Shown here in pieces: positions 51,118-62,048 of a stretch of 64,000 nt of DNA; within the stretch, counting starts at the first letter, position 1; every line of letters starts with the position of its first letter. Under the pieces are notes generated by a model that made no database searches, was not told the DNA's origin, and saw only the letters and a program-made list of their open reading frames with translations. The stretch is from Pseudomonas brassicacearum (GTDB lineage: Bacteria > Pseudomonadota > Gammaproteobacteria > Pseudomonadales > Pseudomonadaceae): the NCBI RefSeq assembly GCF_000585995.1, contig NZ_CP007410.1:3313430-3377429 (forward strand), in the 5' to 3' direction. A program made the translations under genes and the position numbers.

Positions 51118-51558
51118 ATGGAGTTCGTGGTTCATAGCTATTGCCTCAAAGGCGCACGCCAGGAGCCTTTGCTGCCTCCTGTCAGCGTGACACCGGCCTC
51201 GTTGACCTTGACGGTCGCCGAGCTGATTCGCCTGGCTGTTGCCGAGCAAATCGCCGCGCTGTCGATCCGACACTGCGAGGAACAAGTGTCGGTACGTGAA
51301 GTGCTCGACCGCCAATACCTGAGCGAGCGGGAGATTCTTCAGCAAGCCAGCGAAGGCGCGGTTGTCATGCCTCAGGCCAGCGCGTCCCCAGACCTGGATG
51401 TCGGCGTTCAGGTCGAGCGAGCCTTGAACGGTTTTGAAGCTCGTGCATTTCGCGTTCTGCACAATGGCGTCATGTTGCAAAGACTCGATGAGTCAATCGA
51501 ATTGAGTCCTCCTTCCACGCTCGCGTTTATCCGCCTGGTGCCGCTGATTGGCGGTTGA
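51118..51558 (+). CDS. 146-residue protein with ubiquitin/MoaD-like ends and C-terminal Gly-Gly
   Basis: I do not recognise a named family. The N-terminus (E-F-V-V-H-S-Y-C-L-K-G, then L-T-V-A-E-L-I-R-L-A-V) resembles the first strand and helix of a beta-grasp fold. The C-terminus (F-R-V-L-H-N-G-V-M-L, then L-A-F-I-R-L-V-P-L-I-G-G) resembles the end of MoaD/ThiS, finishing exactly in Gly-Gly. About 50 residues, likely an insertion or helix, separate the halves. AGAGG precedes the ATG. The DUF4132-like gene follows after 30 bp in the same direction, so the two are probably one operon. Confidence 0.7.
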   Translation: MEFVVHSYCLKGARQEPLLPPVSVTPASLTLTVAELIRLAVAEQIAALSIRHCEEQVSVREVLDRQYLSEREILQQASEGAVVMPQASASPDLDVGVQVERALNGFEARAFRVLHNGVMLQRLDESIELSPPSTLAFIRLVPLIGG

Positions 51559-51588
51559 CCCTCGACGCTTACTTCCTCGGATACCCTC

Positions 51589-54513
51589 ATGCAATCACGC
51601 CGTCCTGTGCCCGAACAAGCCACGCGCCTCGCTGCGCTGCGAGCATTCTGTGATAAAGCGCTGGATGACTATCCCGAGCTCAGCCGATATGACGAATTCG
51701 AACCCGATTTCTGGGACGGCATCGACTTCCTGCGCATCGCCAATGACTGGGTCAGGCAGCATCCCGAGGATGGCCCCAAGGCACTGGCCGATGGCCTTGT
51801 GTTCCCGACCGTTTGGGACGATCTGGAAGACCGTCGCGATCAACAGCGTTATGGCCTGCAATATCGACTCTGCGATGCGTGGATCACGGCTCACCCGGAC
51901 GCCTATGGGCTGGAGCAGATCGGCGCGCGACTGCAGCACATGCTGCAATTTGCCTTCGAGGACAGCGACTATCCATTGCCCACTGACGAAGATGGCCCGG
52001 CCTATTACCGACGAAGACCGGAACAGGCCTGGGCTTTCCCTGACGTTCAGGCCTGCATCAATCGCCTGAGTAATTACCCGTCCACTCCGGTCTGGCAGGT
52101 CTTCGCCGAATGGTTGCTGGACGGCAGCTGGAACCGCGTACAGCCGCCTTCCCCGCCTGATGACGAAAGGACAATCGCCGACGCATATATCTACGTGCAC
52201 AAAGACATCAAACGCATCGCCTTGGGCCTGCAGGAAGCGGGCCGCCTCGATTACCCTCGCTTCGTCCGGGCGGCCGATACCTGGGGCCGCGCCATGATGT
52301 TCTACTCAGACGACAGCGGGCTGTACAGCGATGATGTGGACCTGGATCGATACACCGATGAAGCGTTCGACGAGGACGATTCAAACGACGAGGAACCGCA
52401 AGACGAAGCCGTCGATAATGAGTCGTCCCAGGGCGATGAGGCGTCCACTGAAGACCCCGTTGCAGTGCCTGCTGAACTGGTGAACTTCACCGTTCGTTAT
52501 GTCGAGGACGCCCTGGCTGGATTGCCCGATAACGCCGCGAAGCTGGCGGACACTTTCCGCTCGGTCGAGGTGTATCAGGTCCGCTGGTTGCTGCAGGCCT
52601 TGGCGGTAATCGATCGACTGGGAGTGACGCCGGATGACTTTGACAGCTTCGGCGATACGGCCGCAGTGCTCCAATGCTTCCTGCTGCTTCAGGATTTGCC
52701 AAAAAACCAATCGACAGAGCTGCTCGCGGCGCTGACCGGCTTCTCGAGAAATACCCTGCTGACCGCCCTGCCCTATACCGGACAAGCCAGCCGAGTGGTA
52801 CTCGACGCGCTCGGTTGGAGTGATCTGCAAGCCTTCCAACGTGAATACCTCAACATTGCCCTGGCACCTCGCTCTGGCTGGGGCACCGACCTGCCCAATA
52901 CGCTGGATGAAACCGTCGGTGTGGTGGACCGCTACCTGCTGGACAAGGCGCTGGCCGAGGCCGACCCAGACCACCTGCGCGAGTACCTGGCTGCACTCGA
53001 ACCCTCGCACTGGGCGTTTCCCGAGACGCGCGTGCTGCTCGATGCCTACCGGGGCATCGGTCGACCGGCGCTGGAAAAGAAATTGGCCCGCCACGCACAG
53101 CCGGCCATGCGCATCTATGGCGTACTGCCCGTCATGGATTCGGACGACGTACGCCAGCGTTATCTGACGCTCAAGAAACTGCACAAAGAGGTGCGTAAAT
53201 ACGGCCCTCAACGACAGGCCAATTCCCACGCAGCGGTGCAGGCAGGCCTGGAAAACCTGGCGCGTGTCGCCGGTTACCCCTCGGCGATTCGCCTGGAATG
53301 GGCCATGGAATCGGAGATCGCCGAATCCGCCCTGACGGCCGCCACTATCGACGGCTATGACGTCAGGCTGGTGATCGACGGCTTGTCGCCCACGCTGCAC
53401 ATCTGCAAAGCCGCAAAGACGCTCAAGACCGCACCGCCTGCGATTCGCAAGAGCCCAGACTTCGTCGCCCTCAAAACGCAGCAGACCCAGCTCAAGGAAC
53501 AGATCGCACGCTTCTGCCGCACCCTGGAAGCGATGATGAGCAGCGGCGAAACCCTGGCCCTGGACGACCTGAAGCCGCTGTTGAAAATGCCCGCGGTTCG
53601 CCTGCTGCTGGAACAACTGATCGTGCAGGCCGACGACGTGGTGCTGGGCTGGCTCGATGCCGCGACGCTGACGGTGACTGACCTTGAAGGCCGCCAACAC
53701 GTCGCTGAAAAGCACCTGCGTATTGCCCACCCTTTTCATCTGTTCACCGCAGGACAACTGTCGGCCTGGCAGATAGACGTGGTGAGCCATCGCCGCGTGC
53801 AGCCGTTCAAACAGGCCTTTCGCGAGCTGTACCTGCTGACACCGGCCGAACGAGACAGCGGCCTGTGGTCCAATCGATTTGCCGGCCACCGCCTGAAAGG
53901 CAAAGTAGCCGCCCGGTTGCTGCAGGTCCGCAACTGGTCGACCTCAAGCGTCGAGGACATCTATTACGAGAGCAAAGAGCACGGCATCTACGCCATGTTC
54001 AACTTTCTGGATACCGGCCATTACCTTTCGGAAACAGAACACTTTACCTTCGACACGATTGCCTTCTACCGCGACCAGCAAGCCATTCCCCTCGAGCAAG
54101 TACCGCCGCTGCTGTTCTCTGAAATCATGCGTGACGCCGATTTGCTGGTCTCCGTGGCCCACGCCGCTGACGGCTACAACACCAGCAACGAAACCCTGCA
54201 ACGGCGCGCCGAACTGGTCGGCGAATTGATTCAAGGGCTAGGTTTGCAGAACGTTAAATGTGAAGGGCATTTTCTGCACATCATCGGCCAGCGTGCGAAC
54301 TACCGCATTCATCTGGGCAGCGCAGCCATCCATATCGAGCCCGGCCACTACCTGTGCATCGTGCCCGCAGGCAGCGGCGTCACGGACTTCTACCTGCCCT
54401 TCGCCGACACCGATAAGAAAATGGCCGAGGTGCTGAGCAAGATGTTCCTATTGCTGGACGACATGAACATCACCGACAGCCTGATACTGGAGCAGATACA
54501 ACGCGGTAGCTGA
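51589..54513 (+). CDS. DUF4132-like large protein
   Basis: This 974-residue soluble protein has about 240 helical residues, an acidic low-complexity linker (about 250-305, D/E/S-rich), a long alpha-helical repeat-like middle and a C-terminal region. That region carries R-V-Q-P-F-K-Q-A-F-R-E-L-Y and N-R-F-A-G-H-R-L, the pattern of DUF4132 (MolR-type) proteins. DUF4132 is of unknown function; in E. coli related genes lie with WGR-domain proteins. Here it is paired with a 146-residue protein ending in Gly-Gly. No catalytic motif could be read. A hairpin follows the stop. Confidence 0.75.
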   Translation: MQSRRPVPEQATRLAALRAFCDKALDDYPELSRYDEFEPDFWDGIDFLRIANDWVRQHPEDGPKALADGLVFPTVWDDLEDRRDQQRYGLQYRLCDAWITAHPDAYGLEQIGARLQHMLQFAFEDSDYPLPTDEDGPAYYRRRPEQAWAFPDVQACINRLSNYPSTPVWQVFAEWLLDGSWNRVQPPSPPDDERTIADAYIYVHKDIKRIALGLQEAGRLDYPRFVRAADTWGRAMMFYSDDSGLYSDDVDLDRYTDEAFDEDDSNDEEPQDEAVDNESSQGDEASTEDPVAVPAELVNFTVRYVEDALAGLPDNAAKLADTFRSVEVYQVRWLLQALAVIDRLGVTPDDFDSFGDTAAVLQCFLLLQDLPKNQSTELLAALTGFSRNTLLTALPYTGQASRVVLDALGWSDLQAFQREYLNIALAPRSGWGTDLPNTLDETVGVVDRYLLDKALAEADPDHLREYLAALEPSHWAFPETRVLLDAYRGIGRPALEKKLARHAQPAMRIYGVLPVMDSDDVRQRYLTLKKLHKEVRKYGPQRQANSHAAVQAGLENLARVAGYPSAIRLEWAMESEIAESALTAATIDGYDVRLVIDGLSPTLHICKAAKTLKTAPPAIRKSPDFVALKTQQTQLKEQIARFCRTLEAMMSSGETLALDDLKPLLKMPAVRLLLEQLIVQADDVVLGWLDAATLTVTDLEGRQHVAEKHLRIAHPFHLFTAGQLSAWQIDVVSHRRVQPFKQAFRELYLLTPAERDSGLWSNRFAGHRLKGKVAARLLQVRNWSTSSVEDIYYESKEHGIYAMFNFLDTGHYLSETEHFTFDTIAFYRDQQAIPLEQVPPLLFSEIMRDADLLVSVAHAADGYNTSNETLQRRAELVGELIQGLGLQNVKCEGHFLHIIGQRANYRIHLGSAAIHIEPGHYLCIVPAGSGVTDFYLPFADTDKKMAEVLSKMFLLLDDMNITDSLILEQIQRGS

Positions 54514-54556: not shown

Positions 54557-56140
<1,584 letters not shown>

Positions 56141-56245
56141 TTATTTTTTTGTTCCCGCGACTGCCTTCTTCTCGTGGTTTCTGAATTGTCAGACTCCACG
56201 AAAAAAAGGATGCCTCATCGCAAATACACTGCTACATTTGGCGAT

Positions 56246-56257
56246 GTTAACGTTAAC
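56246..56257. promoter_or_regulatory. Perfect palindrome, probable LacI-family operator
   Basis: GTTAACGTTAAC is an exact 12-bp palindrome with a central CG, the usual symmetry of LacI/GalR-family operators. It lies 30 bp upstream of the solute-binding-protein start, between it and the divergent porin gene. The LacI regulator at 62124 is the likely ligand. Inferred, not demonstrated. Confidence 0.6.
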
Positions 56258-56287
56258 TTTTCTAAAAACAAAAATAAAGAGGGCTTT

Positions 56288-57562
56288 ATGAAACAGCTCA
56301 AATCGCTCCTTCCAGCAGCGTTATTCGTACTGTGTGGGGGGCTTCCATCCCTCTCGACTGCAGCCAATCTGACGATCTCCTGCGGCGCGGTAGGTGCCGA
56401 ATTGCAACTGTGCAAGGAGGCTGTCGAGGCATGGTCGAAACAGACCGGCAACAGCGTGGAGGTGGTGTCCACGCCTAACTCGGCGACTGAGAGATTGTCG
56501 TTTTACCAACAGATCCTGAGTGCGCAGTCCAGCGACATCGACATCATTCAAATCGACATGGTATGGCCGGGGATGCTGGCCAAGCATCTGATGGATTTGC
56601 GCGAGGTACTTCCCGCCGACGCGACCCAGGGCTACTTCCAGGCCCAGGTGGATAACGCCACGGTGAACGGACGCCTGGTGACGATGCCGTGGTTCACCGA
56701 TTCGGGCCTGCTGTATTACCGCAAGGATTGGCTCGAAAAGTACAACAAACCAGTGCCCCAGACCTGGGAGGAAATGACCGCTACCGCCAGGGACGTGCAA
56801 CTGGCCGAGCGCAACGCCGGTAACGCCAATGCCTGGGGCTACATATTCCAGGGCCGCGCCTACGAGGGCCTGACGTGTAATGCCCTGGAGTGGATCAGCA
56901 GTCAACCGGACGGTGGGCTGGTCAACGCCAAAGGCGACATCGTGGTCAACACCCAGGCCTCAAGAACGGCTTTGACGCTGGCGAAAAGCTGGGTAGGCGA
57001 CATCTCTCCACGGGGCGTACTCAATTACACCGAAGAAGAAGGCCGCGGCGTGTTCCAGTCGGGAAATGCGCTGTTCATGCGTAACTGGCCGTATGTCTGG
57101 GCCTTGGTGCAAAGCCCGGACAGTGCCGTGAAAGATAAGGTCGGCGTTGCTCCCCTGCCCCGCGGTGGCGACACCGGCACCCATGCCTCCACCCTCGGTG
57201 GCTGGGGCCTGGCGGTCTCGCGCTATAGCGCCAATCCAAAGCTTGCCGCGGAACTGGTGAGCTACTTGAGTAGTGCCCAGCAGCAGAAACATCGTGCGCT
57301 GGTCGGTGCCTACAACCCGGTGATCGAATCGCTCTACCAAGATCCCGAGTTGCTCGCGGCGATGCCTTATTACAGCCAGCTGCACAGCATTCTCAATGAT
57401 GGGGTCATGCGCCCTGCCTCAGTCACTGCGGATCGCTATCCACGGGTCTCCAATGCCTTCTTCGACCAGGTTCATGGCGTCCTCGCCGGCGAACGGCCGG
57501 TCGATCAGGCGCTGGCCGAGCTGGAAAGCGAACTCACGCGCATCAAACGCCGGAACTGGTAA
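56288..57562 (+). CDS. Sugar ABC transporter solute-binding protein (CUT1 family)
   Basis: This 424-residue periplasmic protein has a signal peptide ending near L-S-T-A-A and the extracellular-binding-protein 1 fold (D-I-D-I-I-Q-I-D-M-V-W-P and Y-N-K-P-V-P-Q-T-W-E-E-M). It captures the sugar for the two permeases and ATPase that follow. The ATG at 56288 with AGAGGG is chosen; the frame runs upstream through non-coding leader. It is first in a five-gene rightward operon with a GH32 hydrolase, so the substrate is probably sucrose or a related fructoside. Divergent from the porin gene. Confidence 0.9.
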   Translation: MKQLKSLLPAALFVLCGGLPSLSTAANLTISCGAVGAELQLCKEAVEAWSKQTGNSVEVVSTPNSATERLSFYQQILSAQSSDIDIIQIDMVWPGMLAKHLMDLREVLPADATQGYFQAQVDNATVNGRLVTMPWFTDSGLLYYRKDWLEKYNKPVPQTWEEMTATARDVQLAERNAGNANAWGYIFQGRAYEGLTCNALEWISSQPDGGLVNAKGDIVVNTQASRTALTLAKSWVGDISPRGVLNYTEEEGRGVFQSGNALFMRNWPYVWALVQSPDSAVKDKVGVAPLPRGGDTGTHASTLGGWGLAVSRYSANPKLAAELVSYLSSAQQQKHRALVGAYNPVIESLYQDPELLAAMPYYSQLHSILNDGVMRPASVTADRYPRVSNAFFDQVHGVLAGERPVDQALAELESELTRIKRRNW

Positions 57563-57583
57563 GCCACAAGGAAGGAAATCACC

Positions 57584-58546
57584 ATGTCTGTCTCCACTGC
57601 CCTTGCCCCCTCTGACGAGCTGCTGCTCACCCGGGAAACGCCGGTACAACGCCGTCGGGTTCGCGCCGCCTGGCTGTTCCTGACGCCGATGTTGCTGTGT
57701 CTGGCCCTGGTAGCGGCCTGGCCGCTGCTGCGTACATTCTGGTTTAGCCTGACCGATGCCAGCCTGGCCGATACCGGCGACGCAACCTTTATCGGCTTGA
57801 GCAACTATCTATTCCACAGCAGCGCCGGCTGGTCAGGCATTTTGGTCGATCCACAATGGTGGAACGCAGTGCGCAACACGTTGCATTTCACCGTGGTGTC
57901 AGTGGGGTTGGAGATCGTACTGGGGCTGCTGGTGGCGTTGCTGCTGAACATTCAGTTCACCGGACGCGCCCTGGTGCGGGCGCTGATCCTGATTCCCTGG
58001 GCGATCCCGACCATTGTCTCGGCGAAGATCTGGTCTTGGATGCTCAACGACCAGTTCGGCATCATCAATCACCTGATGCTGAGCCTCGGCCTGATTGACG
58101 CGCCCCTGGCCTGGACGGCAGACGCCGGCCTGTCGATGTGGGCGGTGATCATCGTCGACGTCTGGAAGACCGTCCCTTTTGTCACGCTGCTGATGCTGGC
58201 GGCCTTGCAAATGTTACCGGGCGATTGCTACGAAGCCGCCCGGGTCGATGGCATTCATCCGCTGAAGGTGTTCTGGCGCGTCACCCTGCCCCTGCTGATG
58301 CCGGCCTTGCTGGTGGCGGCGATCTTCAGGATCCTCGATTCCTTGCGGGTGTTCGACGTCATCTACGTGCTGACCTCGAATTCGTCGAGCACCATGAGTA
58401 TGTCGGTCTACGCCCGCCAGCATCTGGTGGAGTTCCAGGACGTCGGCTACGGCAGCGCGGCCTCGACCCTGCTGTTTCTGGTGGTTGCGGTGATCGCCAT
58501 GGTTTACCTGTACCTCGGCCGCCGTCAACTGGAGGTGCGCTCATGA
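57584..58546 (+). CDS. Sugar ABC transporter permease, MalF-like
   Basis: This 320-residue inner-membrane protein has about six helices and the CUT1 EAA loop (Y-E-A-A-R-V-D-G-I-H-P-L-K-V-F-W-R-V-T-L-P) that contacts the ATPase. An N-terminal hydrophilic tail with R-R-R-V-R-A-A-W-L-F precedes the first helix. It is the larger of two permeases for sucrose-type uptake. GGAAGG precedes the ATG, 21 bp after the binding protein, and its stop overlaps the next permease by 4 bp. Confidence 0.93.
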   Translation: MSVSTALAPSDELLLTRETPVQRRRVRAAWLFLTPMLLCLALVAAWPLLRTFWFSLTDASLADTGDATFIGLSNYLFHSSAGWSGILVDPQWWNAVRNTLHFTVVSVGLEIVLGLLVALLLNIQFTGRALVRALILIPWAIPTIVSAKIWSWMLNDQFGIINHLMLSLGLIDAPLAWTADAGLSMWAVIIVDVWKTVPFVTLLMLAALQMLPGDCYEAARVDGIHPLKVFWRVTLPLLMPALLVAAIFRILDSLRVFDVIYVLTSNSSSTMSMSVYARQHLVEFQDVGYGSAASTLLFLVVAVIAMVYLYLGRRQLEVRS

Positions 58547-59385
58547 GCCCGCGCCTGCTGAAAAAAACGCTGCTGCGCCTCGGGTTCTGGTGCCTGATCG
58601 GGGTTCTGCTGCTGTATGCGGTCTTCCCTTTCTACTACGCCATCGTGACGTCGCTGAAACCGTCCAGCGCCTTGTTCCAGGTGAGCTACTGGATCGACAA
58701 CCCGGACTTTTCCAACTATGCCGCAGTGCTCAACCAAGCCTCATTCCTGCGGGCGATTGGTAACTCGCTGGTGGTGGCGCTGTGCGTGGTCACGTTGGCG
58801 CTGTTCCTCAGCCTGACCGCCGCCTATGCCCTGGGCCGGGTGAAGTTCCGGGGGCGTGGCACGGTCTTGATGATGGTCCTCGGCGTGTCGATGTTCCCCC
58901 AGGTCGCGGTGCTGTCGGGGCTGTTCGAAGTGATTCGTGCCCTGGGCCTGTACAACACGTCCTGGGCATTGATCCTGAGCTACACGATTTTCACCCTGCC
59001 CTTCACCGTCTGGGTGCTGACCACCTTCATGGGCCAACTGCCCCACGAACTGGAAGAGGCGGCCATCATGGACGGCGCTTCGCCTTGGGTCACATTGATC
59101 CGCGTGCTGCTGCCGCTGCTCTGGCCCGCGCTGGTCACCACCGGCCTACTGGCGTTCATCGCCGCATGGAACGAGTTTCTGTTTGCCCTGACCTTCACCC
59201 TCACCGACACGCAGCGCACGGTCCCGGTGGCCATCGCCCTGATTTCCGGCGGCAGTCCCCATGAGTTGCCTTGGGGGTTGTTGATGGCCGCATCAGTGCT
59301 GGTCACCGTCCCATTGGTGATTCTGGTGCTGATCTTCCAGCGCCGAATCGTTTCCGGCCTCACTACCGGCGCGTTAAAGGGTTGA
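58543..59385 (+). CDS. Sugar ABC transporter permease, MalG-like
   Basis: This 280-residue permease has about six helices and the EAA loop L-E-E-A-A-I-M-D-G-A-S-P-W-V. The start ATG overlaps the previous stop (ATGA) with GGAGG nearby; a much longer upstream frame is not coding. It pairs with the MalF-like protein to form the translocation channel for the sugar. Confidence 0.94.
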   Translation: MSPRLLKKTLLRLGFWCLIGVLLLYAVFPFYYAIVTSLKPSSALFQVSYWIDNPDFSNYAAVLNQASFLRAIGNSLVVALCVVTLALFLSLTAAYALGRVKFRGRGTVLMMVLGVSMFPQVAVLSGLFEVIRALGLYNTSWALILSYTIFTLPFTVWVLTTFMGQLPHELEEAAIMDGASPWVTLIRVLLPLLWPALVTTGLLAFIAAWNEFLFALTFTLTDTQRTVPVAIALISGGSPHELPWGLLMAASVLVTVPLVILVLIFQRRIVSGLTTGALKG

Positions 59386-59412
59386 TGCCCAACAAAGACA
59401 AGGAACAGCATC

Positions 59413-60549
59413 GTGATCAAGTTGAAGCTAGACAACGTGAACAAACAATTGGGCGGCGCGCGCATTCTTCGCGATGTCAGCCTGGAAATCGCCGCGGGTG
59501 AATTCGTGGTGTTCGTCGGCCCTTCGGGCTGCGGAAAATCGACCCTGCTGCGACTGATTGCCGGACTGGATTCGATCTGCGGCGGCGACCTGCTGATCGA
59601 CGGGCGCCGGGTCAACGACCTGGAGCCACGGGAGCGTGGTGTCGGCATGGTGTTTCAATCCTATGCGCTGTACCCGCACATGAGCGTCTACGACAACATC
59701 AGTTTTGGTCTCAAACTGGCCAAGACCGAAAAAACCACGCTGCGCGAGCGCGTGCTGAAAACCGCGCAAATCCTGCAATTGGACAAGCTGCTGCAACGCA
59801 AACCCAAGGAGCTGTCCGGCGGCCAGCGTCAGCGGGTAGCCATGGGCAGGGCCATGGCCCGGGAGCCGGACATTTTGCTGTTCGATGAGCCGCTGTCGAA
59901 CCTGGACGCCTCGCTGCGGGTGCAGATGCGCAACGAAATCGCCCGGCTGCACGCGCGACTGGGCTCGACCATGATCTACGTCACCCATGACCAAGTTGAA
60001 GCGATGACCCTGGCCGACAAGATTGTCGTGCTCAATGGCGGGCGCATCGAGCAAGTCGGCTCACCGCAAGCACTCTACGAGCGTCCAGCCAGCCGTTTTG
60101 TCGCCGGTTTCCTGGGTTCGCCCAGAATGAATTTTCTTCCAGCGTTCCTGCACACCCCAGGCGCAACCAGCCTGGTTGAAAGCCTCGTATTGGGGATGAC
60201 CTCTCTGCCCTTCGACAGCTCGGGGCTGGCGGCGAACACCCCGCTGACGCTGGGGATTCGTCCGGAACATGTAATGCTCAAAGCGGCGCAAGGCAGCATT
60301 GGCGTCGCCGTGACCGTTGTCGAATACCTGGGCAGCGAAACCTATGTGCACCTCGACACCGGCCAGGAGGAGCCCCTGATCTGTCGCTGTGAAGTCAACG
60401 CCGGATGGCAGGTGGGCGACCGGGTCGAACTGCAGGTGGCGTTCGACAATCTGCACCTGTTCGACGCCGCCGGTACGGCCTTGAAACGTCACCCGCAAAC
60501 CCCGCCGGATAACGTGACCCTGCGCTCGGTACGAGCAAACGCCCTATGA
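59413..60549 (+). CDS. Sugar ABC transporter ATP-binding protein (MalK/UgpC-like)
   Basis: This 378-residue ATPase energises the CUT1 importer. Walker A is G-P-S-G-C-G-K-S-T, the signature is L-S-G-G-Q-R-Q-R, and Walker B is I-L-L-F-D-E-P-L-S-N-L-D. A C-terminal TOBE/OB regulatory domain (about 240-360, G-I-R-P-E-H-V) is present, as in MalK. It starts at a GTG with AAGGA nine bases upstream. The stop overlaps the hydrolase start by 4 bp (ATGA), so import and hydrolysis are translationally coupled. Confidence 0.94.
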   Translation: MIKLKLDNVNKQLGGARILRDVSLEIAAGEFVVFVGPSGCGKSTLLRLIAGLDSICGGDLLIDGRRVNDLEPRERGVGMVFQSYALYPHMSVYDNISFGLKLAKTEKTTLRERVLKTAQILQLDKLLQRKPKELSGGQRQRVAMGRAMAREPDILLFDEPLSNLDASLRVQMRNEIARLHARLGSTMIYVTHDQVEAMTLADKIVVLNGGRIEQVGSPQALYERPASRFVAGFLGSPRMNFLPAFLHTPGATSLVESLVLGMTSLPFDSSGLAANTPLTLGIRPEHVMLKAAQGSIGVAVTVVEYLGSETYVHLDTGQEEPLICRCEVNAGWQVGDRVELQVAFDNLHLFDAAGTALKRHPQTPPDNVTLRSVRANAL

Positions 60550-62048
60550 CTTTGTCTTTGAATACCATGAACGCCCCTCTGTCCACGACCCTTGAACTTG
60601 CGCAGCAGGCATTGAGTGATGGCCTGTCTCGCGTTATCCACGACTATCGACCTGACTATCATCTTGCCCCGCCGGTGGGCTGGATGAACGACCCTAACGG
60701 GGTCGTGTACTTTCGTGGCGAATATCACGTGTTCTATCAATATCATCCCTTCGACGCGAAATGGGGCCCGATGTATTGGGGGCACGCCAAGAGTGCCGAC
60801 CTGGTCCATTGGCAGCACCTGCCCATTGCGCTGGCGCCGGGCGATGACGTTGACCGCGATGGCTGTTTTTCCGGGAGCGCGGTGGTGTGTGGCGATACCC
60901 TGGCGCTGATCTACACGGGGCACACTTGGCTGGGGGACGTGGGTGACGAACGCCAGATCCGCCAAGTCCAGTGTCTGGCCACCAGTGTCGACGGCGTCCA
61001 CTTCGTCAAGCATGGCGCTGTCATCGAGACTCCACCGCAAGACGCGATCATGCACTTTCGTGATCCCAAGGTCTGGCAGGACGATGAGCATTGGTACCTG
61101 ATCGCCGGCGCACGCCTGGGCGATACGCCGCTGCTCCCGCTGTACCGTTCGACGGATCTGCACGCCTGGGAATTCCTCGACTATGTGGCCAGCGGCAATG
61201 AGGGCGATGGCTATATGTGGGAATGCCCGGATCTGTTTCGCCTGGACGGGCGCGACGTGTTGCTTTACTCCCCCCAGGGCATGCAGCCCGAGGGGTACGA
61301 CCGGCTCAACAAGTACCAGACCGGCTACCGCGTAGGCCAACTCGACAGCCAATGGCATTTCACCGGTGGGCCTTTCATCGAGCTGGATAACGGCCATGAC
61401 TTCTACGCCGCACAAACGCTGGTGGCTGCCGACGGTCGACGCCTGGTGTGGGCCTGGCTCGACATGTGGGAAAGTCCGATGCCGAGCCAGGCTCATCACT
61501 GGTGCGGGATGCTCGGTTTGCCGCGCGAACTGCAATTGCATGCCGATCGCCTTTGCGTGTTTCCGGCCCGGGAATTGACGGCACTGCGCAAGGCGCCGTT
61601 GCCAGGCTCATCCCCTTGGAGTGAATCGGGTAGCCTATGGGTGCCGCACGTGCAGGGCGACCGCCTCGAAATCCATGTGCACTTGGATTTGCTCGGCTGC
61701 ACCGAGGGCCACCTGGGCGTCGCCCTGCGCTGCAGTGTCGATAGTCATGAAGAAACCCTGCTTTATTACGATGCCTCCCTGCGACGCCTGGTGCTCGACC
61801 GCAGTCGTTCGGGCGAACAAGTGACCGGCCAGCGCAGCGTGTCGATAGACCCGGCACAAGGGCCACTGCAACTGCGCGTGTTCCTGGATCGCTCGTCCAT
61901 CGAGGTGTTTGACGAGCACGGGCGCTTCAGCCTCAGCAGCCGTCTCTATCCTCGACCTGACAGTTTGGGGGTGAAGCTCCTGGCGAACGGGACTGGCGGG
62001 AGCGTTTCCATTCCCCAGGCATGGCCCCTGGCCTCGGGATGGCTATGA
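60546..62048 (+). CDS. GH32 sucrose hydrolase (invertase/ScrB-like)
   Basis: This 500-residue glycoside hydrolase family 32 enzyme splits sucrose into glucose and fructose. The nucleophile D49 is in W-M-N-D-P-N-G, the transition-state aspartate is D173 in F-R-D-P, and the acid/base is E226 in W-E-C-P-D. A five-bladed propeller is followed by a beta-sandwich from about residue 350. It has no signal peptide, so it acts inside the cell on sugar imported by the ABC system. Since import is not by PTS, free sucrose rather than sucrose-6-phosphate is the expected substrate. An internal ATG eight codons in is an alternative start. Confidence 0.93.
   Translation: MTLSLNTMNAPLSTTLELAQQALSDGLSRVIHDYRPDYHLAPPVGWMNDPNGVVYFRGEYHVFYQYHPFDAKWGPMYWGHAKSADLVHWQHLPIALAPGDDVDRDGCFSGSAVVCGDTLALIYTGHTWLGDVGDERQIRQVQCLATSVDGVHFVKHGAVIETPPQDAIMHFRDPKVWQDDEHWYLIAGARLGDTPLLPLYRSTDLHAWEFLDYVASGNEGDGYMWECPDLFRLDGRDVLLYSPQGMQPEGYDRLNKYQTGYRVGQLDSQWHFTGGPFIELDNGHDFYAAQTLVAADGRRLVWAWLDMWESPMPSQAHHWCGMLGLPRELQLHADRLCVFPARELTALRKAPLPGSSPWSESGSLWVPHVQGDRLEIHVHLDLLGCTEGHLGVALRCSVDSHEETLLYYDASLRRLVLDRSRSGEQVTGQRSVSIDPAQGPLQLRVFLDRSSIEVFDEHGRFSLSSRLYPRPDSLGVKLLANGTGGSVSIPQAWPLASGWL

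Follow-up and report, generated by a model that had tools for sequence, protein, structure and literature searches.

A Gly-Gly-ended protein with a predicted beta-grasp fold is paired with a DUF4132-DUF7737 giant in Pseudomonas brassicacearum and in relatives from four bacterial phyla

We analyzed a 64,000-nucleotide stretch of the single-contig, 6.65-Mb genome of Pseudomonas brassicacearum (NZ_CP007410.1, positions 3,313,430 to 3,377,429; hereafter the window), which carries a small gene for a 146-residue protein and, beginning 30 bp after it on the same strand, a gene for a 974-residue protein that we call the giant (Table 1). The small protein ends in ...FIRLVPLIGG, and the TGA stop follows immediately after both Gly codons. 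A first-pass annotation, made by a model from the letters alone, had described a protein ending exactly in Gly-Gly and a DUF4132-like neighbor 30 bp away, and the reading frames and a Pfam match confirm both points. Based on the comparisons below, we believe that the two very probably form a dedicated pair, a Gly-Gly-ended beta-grasp protein together with a giant of the DUF4132-DUF7737 type.

Compared with 10 Pseudomonas relatives at 75-88% identity, the small gene has a ratio of nonsynonymous to synonymous substitution (dN/dS) of about 0.19-0.29, indicating that it behaves as a real gene. A Pfam scan of its product gave nothing above the curated cut-off. The AlphaFold2 model (mean predicted local distance difference test score, pLDDT, 79.7; predicted template modeling score, pTM, 0.75) has the topology beta-beta-alpha-beta-beta-beta, matching ubiquitin or MoaD, with residues 144-146 disordered. 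The best VIA-align fold rows are mostly MoaD, ubiquitin, SAMP1, NEDD8, ISG15 and Urm1, largely Gly-Gly carriers and modifiers; families missing from the row list were not taken as exclusions. The beta-grasp fold suggested by the first-pass annotation is therefore also the one predicted when the small protein is modeled alone. Its helical insertion includes a stretch of low model confidence (residues 82-90) and differs in length between relatives in the alignment. None of 16 small-protein members matched the ThiS/MoaD Pfam model at E values up to 10 (few matches above 0.1 pass the HMMER filters), and a small-protein profile found only two matches among solved structures (E 0.42 and 1.5), both unrelated.

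In the window giant, DUF4132 scores 116.6 bits and DUF7737 104.1 bits, against Pfam cut-offs of 27 each, and both domains are above cut-off in all 25 giants that we compared, this one included. In P. morbosilactucae (L009:4402-7333) the giant is divided between two frames beside an intact small gene, and there the Pfam scan covered the downstream piece only. Two giants (L024:10204-13380 and L022:9825-12248) have ankyrin repeats in their N-terminal part, where the Deinococcus and Bacteroides giants have a nearly full DUF5724, suggesting that the N-terminal half has been exchanged. A giant profile matched no solved structure at E up to 1, and a structure model of the giant core reached a mean pLDDT of only 44.

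Table 1. Features of the two-gene unit, in window positions
Feature	Position	Strand	Basis or remark
Small-protein gene, 146 residues, predicted beta-grasp (ubiquitin-like) fold	51118..51558, stop included	+	Open reading frame (ATG start), AlphaFold2 model, VIA-align, dN/dS
Codons for C-terminal Gly145-Gly146	51550..51555	+	Kept in 24/25 relatives
Helical insertion, residues 59-107, between first helix and third strand	51292..51438	+	Model and alignment
974-residue DUF4132-DUF7737 giant gene	51589..54513	+	Open reading frame, Pfam
End of DUF5724, residues 506-573	53104..53307	+	Pfam, E 7e-15
DUF4132, residues 610-783	53416..53937	+	Pfam, E 1.6e-33
DUF7737, residues 871-970, marker tracking the small gene	54199..54498	+	Pfam, E 4.7e-30
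Lys613 codon, candidate tail-site residue	53425..53427	+	Lost in Bacteroides and Acetobacter giants; suggestive only
His767 codon, candidate tail-site residue	53887..53889	+	Lost in Bacteroides and Acetobacter giants, kept in L042 and L036; suggestive only
Cys923 codon, candidate nucleophile or acceptor, in DUF7737	54355..54357	+	Cys in 24/24 giants beside a Gly-Gly protein

Searches with the small protein or its profile found relatives at 10 or more Pseudomonas loci, in 5 of the 292 other genomes of the order and in 2 more of the phylum. The window small-protein sequence itself matched nothing among plasmids; a relative used as query found three plasmid records, from Nonomuraea, Novosphingobium and D. 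radiodurans (E 0.08). A giant used as query brought in three more Deinococcus records and Bacteroides finegoldii, a count that leaves out Embleya, Streptomyces SAT1, two of three Acetobacter plasmids and further Burkholderia records. Two candidates were dropped: one in G049/L003, spurious, lying within a long unrelated frame (E 2.9e-4), and one in Fusobacterium H24 with no corresponding frame (E 0.6). All 20 relatives found with small-protein queries adjoin a giant (for Pseudomonas, which holds the closest relatives of the small gene, both statements apply to the matches listed). With the window pair this makes 25 pairs in four bacterial phyla, Actinomycetota and Bacteroidota being represented by one record each, and in 25/25 loci a giant with both domains adjoins the small gene. 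The small proteins have 124-146 residues, and gene order is reversed, with the giant first, in L022 and L024. Because the pair recurs in every case seen across four phyla, the two proteins probably work together.

The Gly-Gly end, whose conservation and genomic pairing the first-pass annotation had proposed as checks, is terminal in 24 of the 25 small proteins. Given that identity to the window protein falls to 19-33% among the diverse members, we regard this as more than chance.

The small gene follows DUF7737 rather than DUF4132 as such. At the level of the order, the small gene and DUF7737 occur in the same 6/293 genomes; at the level of the phylum, 3/398 genomes have the small gene and all 3 have DUF7737, which otherwise gave one short match (G376, 32 positions, 28 bits, just above cut-off), dropped because it lies in an 85-residue frame with no long frame around it. 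DUF4132 was found in 6/184 genomes of the order, four of which bear the pair; the other two (G043 and G050) have DUF4132 proteins without DUF7737 and no match to the small protein. Four plasmid DUF4132 proteins without DUF7737 also have no small partner, so that none of the six such proteins goes with a small gene. The DUF4132 genes without an adjoining small partner are in Acetobacter, Iodobacter (two), Streptomyces F12, Burkholderia and a second Nonomuraea copy; two of these, in Acetobacter and the second Nonomuraea copy, encode DUF7737. The Nonomuraea replicon has a small gene elsewhere, and a third DUF7737 place in Nonomuraea was left out of the comparison. On the Acetobacter plasmid (giant L033:6951-9749, DUF4132-DUF7737) no small gene was found; the chromosome was not searched. 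The DUF4132-like partner of the first-pass annotation thus stands and is narrowed to the DUF4132-plus-DUF7737 type.

None of 35 other genomes of the genus has the pair, which is therefore rare. Sequence common to nine relatives begins 26-46 bp past the giant, at a porin gene, and in none does it extend to the giant; the small gene is missing in all 5 of these nine that were searched for it. Judged from the listed frames, the pair sits in several different neighborhoods among its Pseudomonas relatives, suggesting that the unit moves as two genes. The distance matrices of 16 small proteins and their giants correlate with r = 0.93, and those of a thinned set of 12 with r = 0.87, values never reached in 5000 permutations (0/5000).

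Beyond residue 500 of the giant, 40 positions are invariant in 15 giants. Position 923 is Ala in Bacteroides and Phe in Acetobacter, both of them DUF7737 giants without a known Gly-Gly partner, while the second Nonomuraea giant retains Cys923. The Acetobacter and Bacteroides giants have both lost K613, A753, H767, L777 and C923, 5 of 56 conserved positions (hypergeometric p 0.012, post hoc). The divergent L042 giant, with 16 of the 56 changed, retains both His767 and Cys923, with Arg in place of Lys613. From such sequence comparison, Lys613 and His767 are suggestive only as tail-site residues.

In agreement with the first-pass annotation, neither an E1 nor a JAB gene was found beside the pair; no search for E2 was made. 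Four E1 queries taken from genomes with the pair (L054, L055, L056 and L059) gave no tblastn hit at E 1e-3 in the window and 24 other loci, with positive controls, and three JAB queries gave none at that threshold in the 25 loci, where very distant JAB genes could escape (two of the three found their positive controls; L082 did not). An E1-family gene is present in all 8 pair-bearing genomes tested, by a single match in G170, so a shared E1 acting in trans is possible. A mycobacterial E1 has a dual role, in molybdenum cofactor and in cysteine biosynthesis (PMC3227635). Across the 8 genomes most JAB matches are weak, and 6 of the genomes have matches above cut-off. In the window genome an E1 gene (ThiF family) and a JAB gene are immediate neighbors at a distance of about 105 kb from the pair (C1:3472654-3474135), an arrangement resembling the siderophore-type clusters tabulated in PMC1779556.

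One member of the family has been studied. The D. radiodurans pair (L032), whose small protein ends in Gly-Gly, corresponds to DR_A0165/DR_A0166, to which we matched it by the same gene order after trxC and an identical upstream motif. The putative operon drA0165-drA0166, for which a role in molybdopterin synthesis was guessed, is repressed by DdrO, with a motif upstream, and DRA0166 protein increases after mitomycin C unless irrE is deleted (PMC8533742). DR_A0165 (SEP068184) increases after gamma rays and peroxide, binds the thioredoxin DR_A0164 and was predicted by its authors to be similar to MOCS2/MoaD and SAMP1 (PMC9650054). The same authors reported it to lack a DdrO motif, to lie outside the DdrO regulon and to occur only in Deinococcus, and DUF4132 is absent from the main text (PMC9650054). 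Contrary to that report, and as PMC8533742 lists, we find the motif exactly at L032:9841-9860, 62 bp before a 134-codon frame; a strict pattern also finds it at two of the three other Deinococcus loci (L037 2715 and L038 2713). In contrast to DR_A0165/DR_A0166 as published, the family seen here spans four phyla, with a giant beside the small gene in each case found. The peptide study had a size limit of 100 residues (PMC9650054), which suggests to us that it used a frame lacking the first strands. In GenBank, the small gene of D7000 (L037:2910-3212) is annotated as a 100-residue frame whose start lies within the conserved frame, so that the first beta strands are lost. Directly upstream of the D. 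radiodurans pair are two YeeE/YedE family genes and the thioredoxin gene trxC (L032:8266-10327), which together with the published thioredoxin binding hint at sulfur or redox chemistry. In the open-license literature we found no paper that, outside Deinococcus, treats the small protein together with the giant as one system.

We propose that the pair is one two-component system, in which a ubiquitin-like carrier would have a dedicated large acceptor. The Gly-Gly tail would be activated, as an adenylate, thiocarboxylate or thioester, by a housekeeping MoeB/ThiF-type E1 whose gene lies elsewhere. Much as the tail of MoaD enters MoaE and that of ThiS enters ThiG, the loaded tail would here enter a site in the DUF4132-DUF7737 core, perhaps near Lys613, His767 and Cys923, and the N-terminal region of the giant, which varies (ankyrin, DUF5724 or other), might pick the target. 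We infer activation, docking, chemistry and target from the pairing, the co-occurrence and co-divergence, the conserved Gly-Gly, the fold rows, the E1 genes in 8/8 genomes, the Cys923 pattern and the induction in Deinococcus. Use of the tail as carrier or modifier seems to us rather likely, and the specific carrier-plus-acceptor mechanism we hold tentatively, at a little under an even chance. The first-pass annotation had suggested a modifier or sulfur carrier with its partner: the fold, the Gly-Gly end, the pairing and the co-occurrence support it in part, E1 activation, sulfur carriage and conjugation being hypothetical. Several points call for caution in reading this evidence. Shared ancestry alone also yields matrix correlations like those above, the pattern of residue losses rests on two exceptions, and of the 16 one-exception columns in the giant alignment 8 are due to one of these, Bacteroides. 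The small protein of Bacteroides finegoldii, the exception to the Gly-Gly rule, ends in ...LAMLSGRLW while the giant is retained, so the role may be non-covalent.

In one alternative reading, favored by this last pair, the beta-grasp protein would be a permanent non-covalent adaptor or regulatory subunit whose tail packs into the giant without carboxylate chemistry. Strict pairing and co-divergence fit such a stable complex, E1 was not found nearby, and N- and C-terminally tagged DR_A0165 pull down overlapping protein sets (PMC9650054); a bare terminal Gly-Gly in 24/25 proteins, among them diverse members, seems in our judgement beyond what packing needs, and the end is disordered in the model, so we consider this reading unlikely, if well worth keeping in mind. 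SAMP, TtuB and Urm1 conjugate to target lysines, and the small protein could likewise be a modifier, with the giant as an E3-like ligase or a reader of conjugates. The fold rows include SAMP1, Urm1, NEDD8 and ISG15, 157 proteins, mainly cytoplasmic, co-purify with the small protein of D. radiodurans (PMC9650054), and a JAMM protease cleaving MoaD-MoaE is reported in D. radiodurans (PMC8832034). The failure to find E1 or JAB neighbors, the single E1-family match in G170, the mostly weak JAB matches and the co-immunoprecipitation lists common to both tag positions (PMC9650054) make conjugation to lysines improbable in our view.

More speculative still is that the giant is a self-contained ubiquitin-like transfer enzyme, in which Cys923, with His767 and Lys613, would take the tail as a thioester or accept sulfur, with N-terminal-guided delivery to targets under oxidative or DNA-damage stress. 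We rate this a long shot; if true, it would be a Gly-Gly pathway without dedicated E1 or E2 in four bacterial phyla. Two genes, a patchy distribution and varied neighborhoods also recall a toxin-antitoxin system, with the giant as toxin and the small protein as its neutralizer. Deletion of DR_A0165, which by reverse transcription PCR leaves DR_A0166 expression unaffected, is viable and raises survival of peroxide (PMC9650054), and we disfavor this explanation as very improbable.

Well-known carriers and acceptors are the nearest parallel to the proposed carrier-acceptor scheme. In MoaD-MoaE, ThiS-ThiG and CysO-CysM, a small beta-grasp Gly-Gly protein has a dedicated acceptor and an E1 in trans, and the likeness to our pair lies in such a protein having a partner. 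The small protein here differs in being larger, in its helical insertion and in matching no ThiS/MoaD Pfam model, and the giants match no solved structure by profile. With bacterial ubiquitin-like conjugation operons the pair shares a Gly-ended beta-grasp protein and patchy occurrence, but the operons described carry E1 and mostly JAB genes (PMC1779556, PMC7159879), neither of which was found here. As far as our searches show, a ubiquitin-like carrier with a partner is a known kind, with one member published, and the partner type and the spread are new. DUF4132, with almost no literature among open-license papers, gains a partner and a possible handle, and the stress protein described as restricted to Deinococcus turns out to be one member of a two-gene system present in four phyla. 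Should the tail prove to be used, bacteria would have one more pathway of the carrier or modifier kind, here with an acceptor of its own; published deletion and tagged strains make this testable in D. radiodurans.

Other DUF4132 proteins include the MolR/YehI type of E. coli; the E. coli control genome matches PF13569 but has no DUF7737, a domain found in 0/14 control genomes. In G050 a MoxR-type AAA gene follows the DUF4132 protein lacking DUF7737 (L078:98-3546), and on an Iodobacter plasmid (L039:6047-15002) such a protein adjoins an AAA ATPase gene and DUF5682. DUF4132 proteins beside AAA ATPase genes are apparently a different DUF4132 system.

PADLOC anti-phage models matched none of the window proteins; among 15 giants, two match PDC-M72A (best E 1.1e-13), and there are single weak matches to HEAT-ARM_XIII, OloA, Hp3 and Csm2. 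A phage origin was considered and rejected: one giant (L023) had no phage match and 19 matches of a giant-alignment pattern in viral contigs were not confirmed, the small protein not being searched in either case. In PHROGs there were matches to three families, one member each (best E 0.0024). Control by LexA was likewise rejected for the window, in which its motif, CTGT-N8-ACAG, has no site. Around the pair there are no sigma-70 promoters, and terminator-like sites number 3, where chance predicts 3.3. Upstream of the pair lies a LysR-type gene; downstream, in opposite orientation, is a LamB-type porin gene (by Pfam), with which an apparent sugar uptake cluster begins (window 54557-62048), continuing with an apparent binding protein, two permeases, an ATPase and a GH32-like hydrolase.

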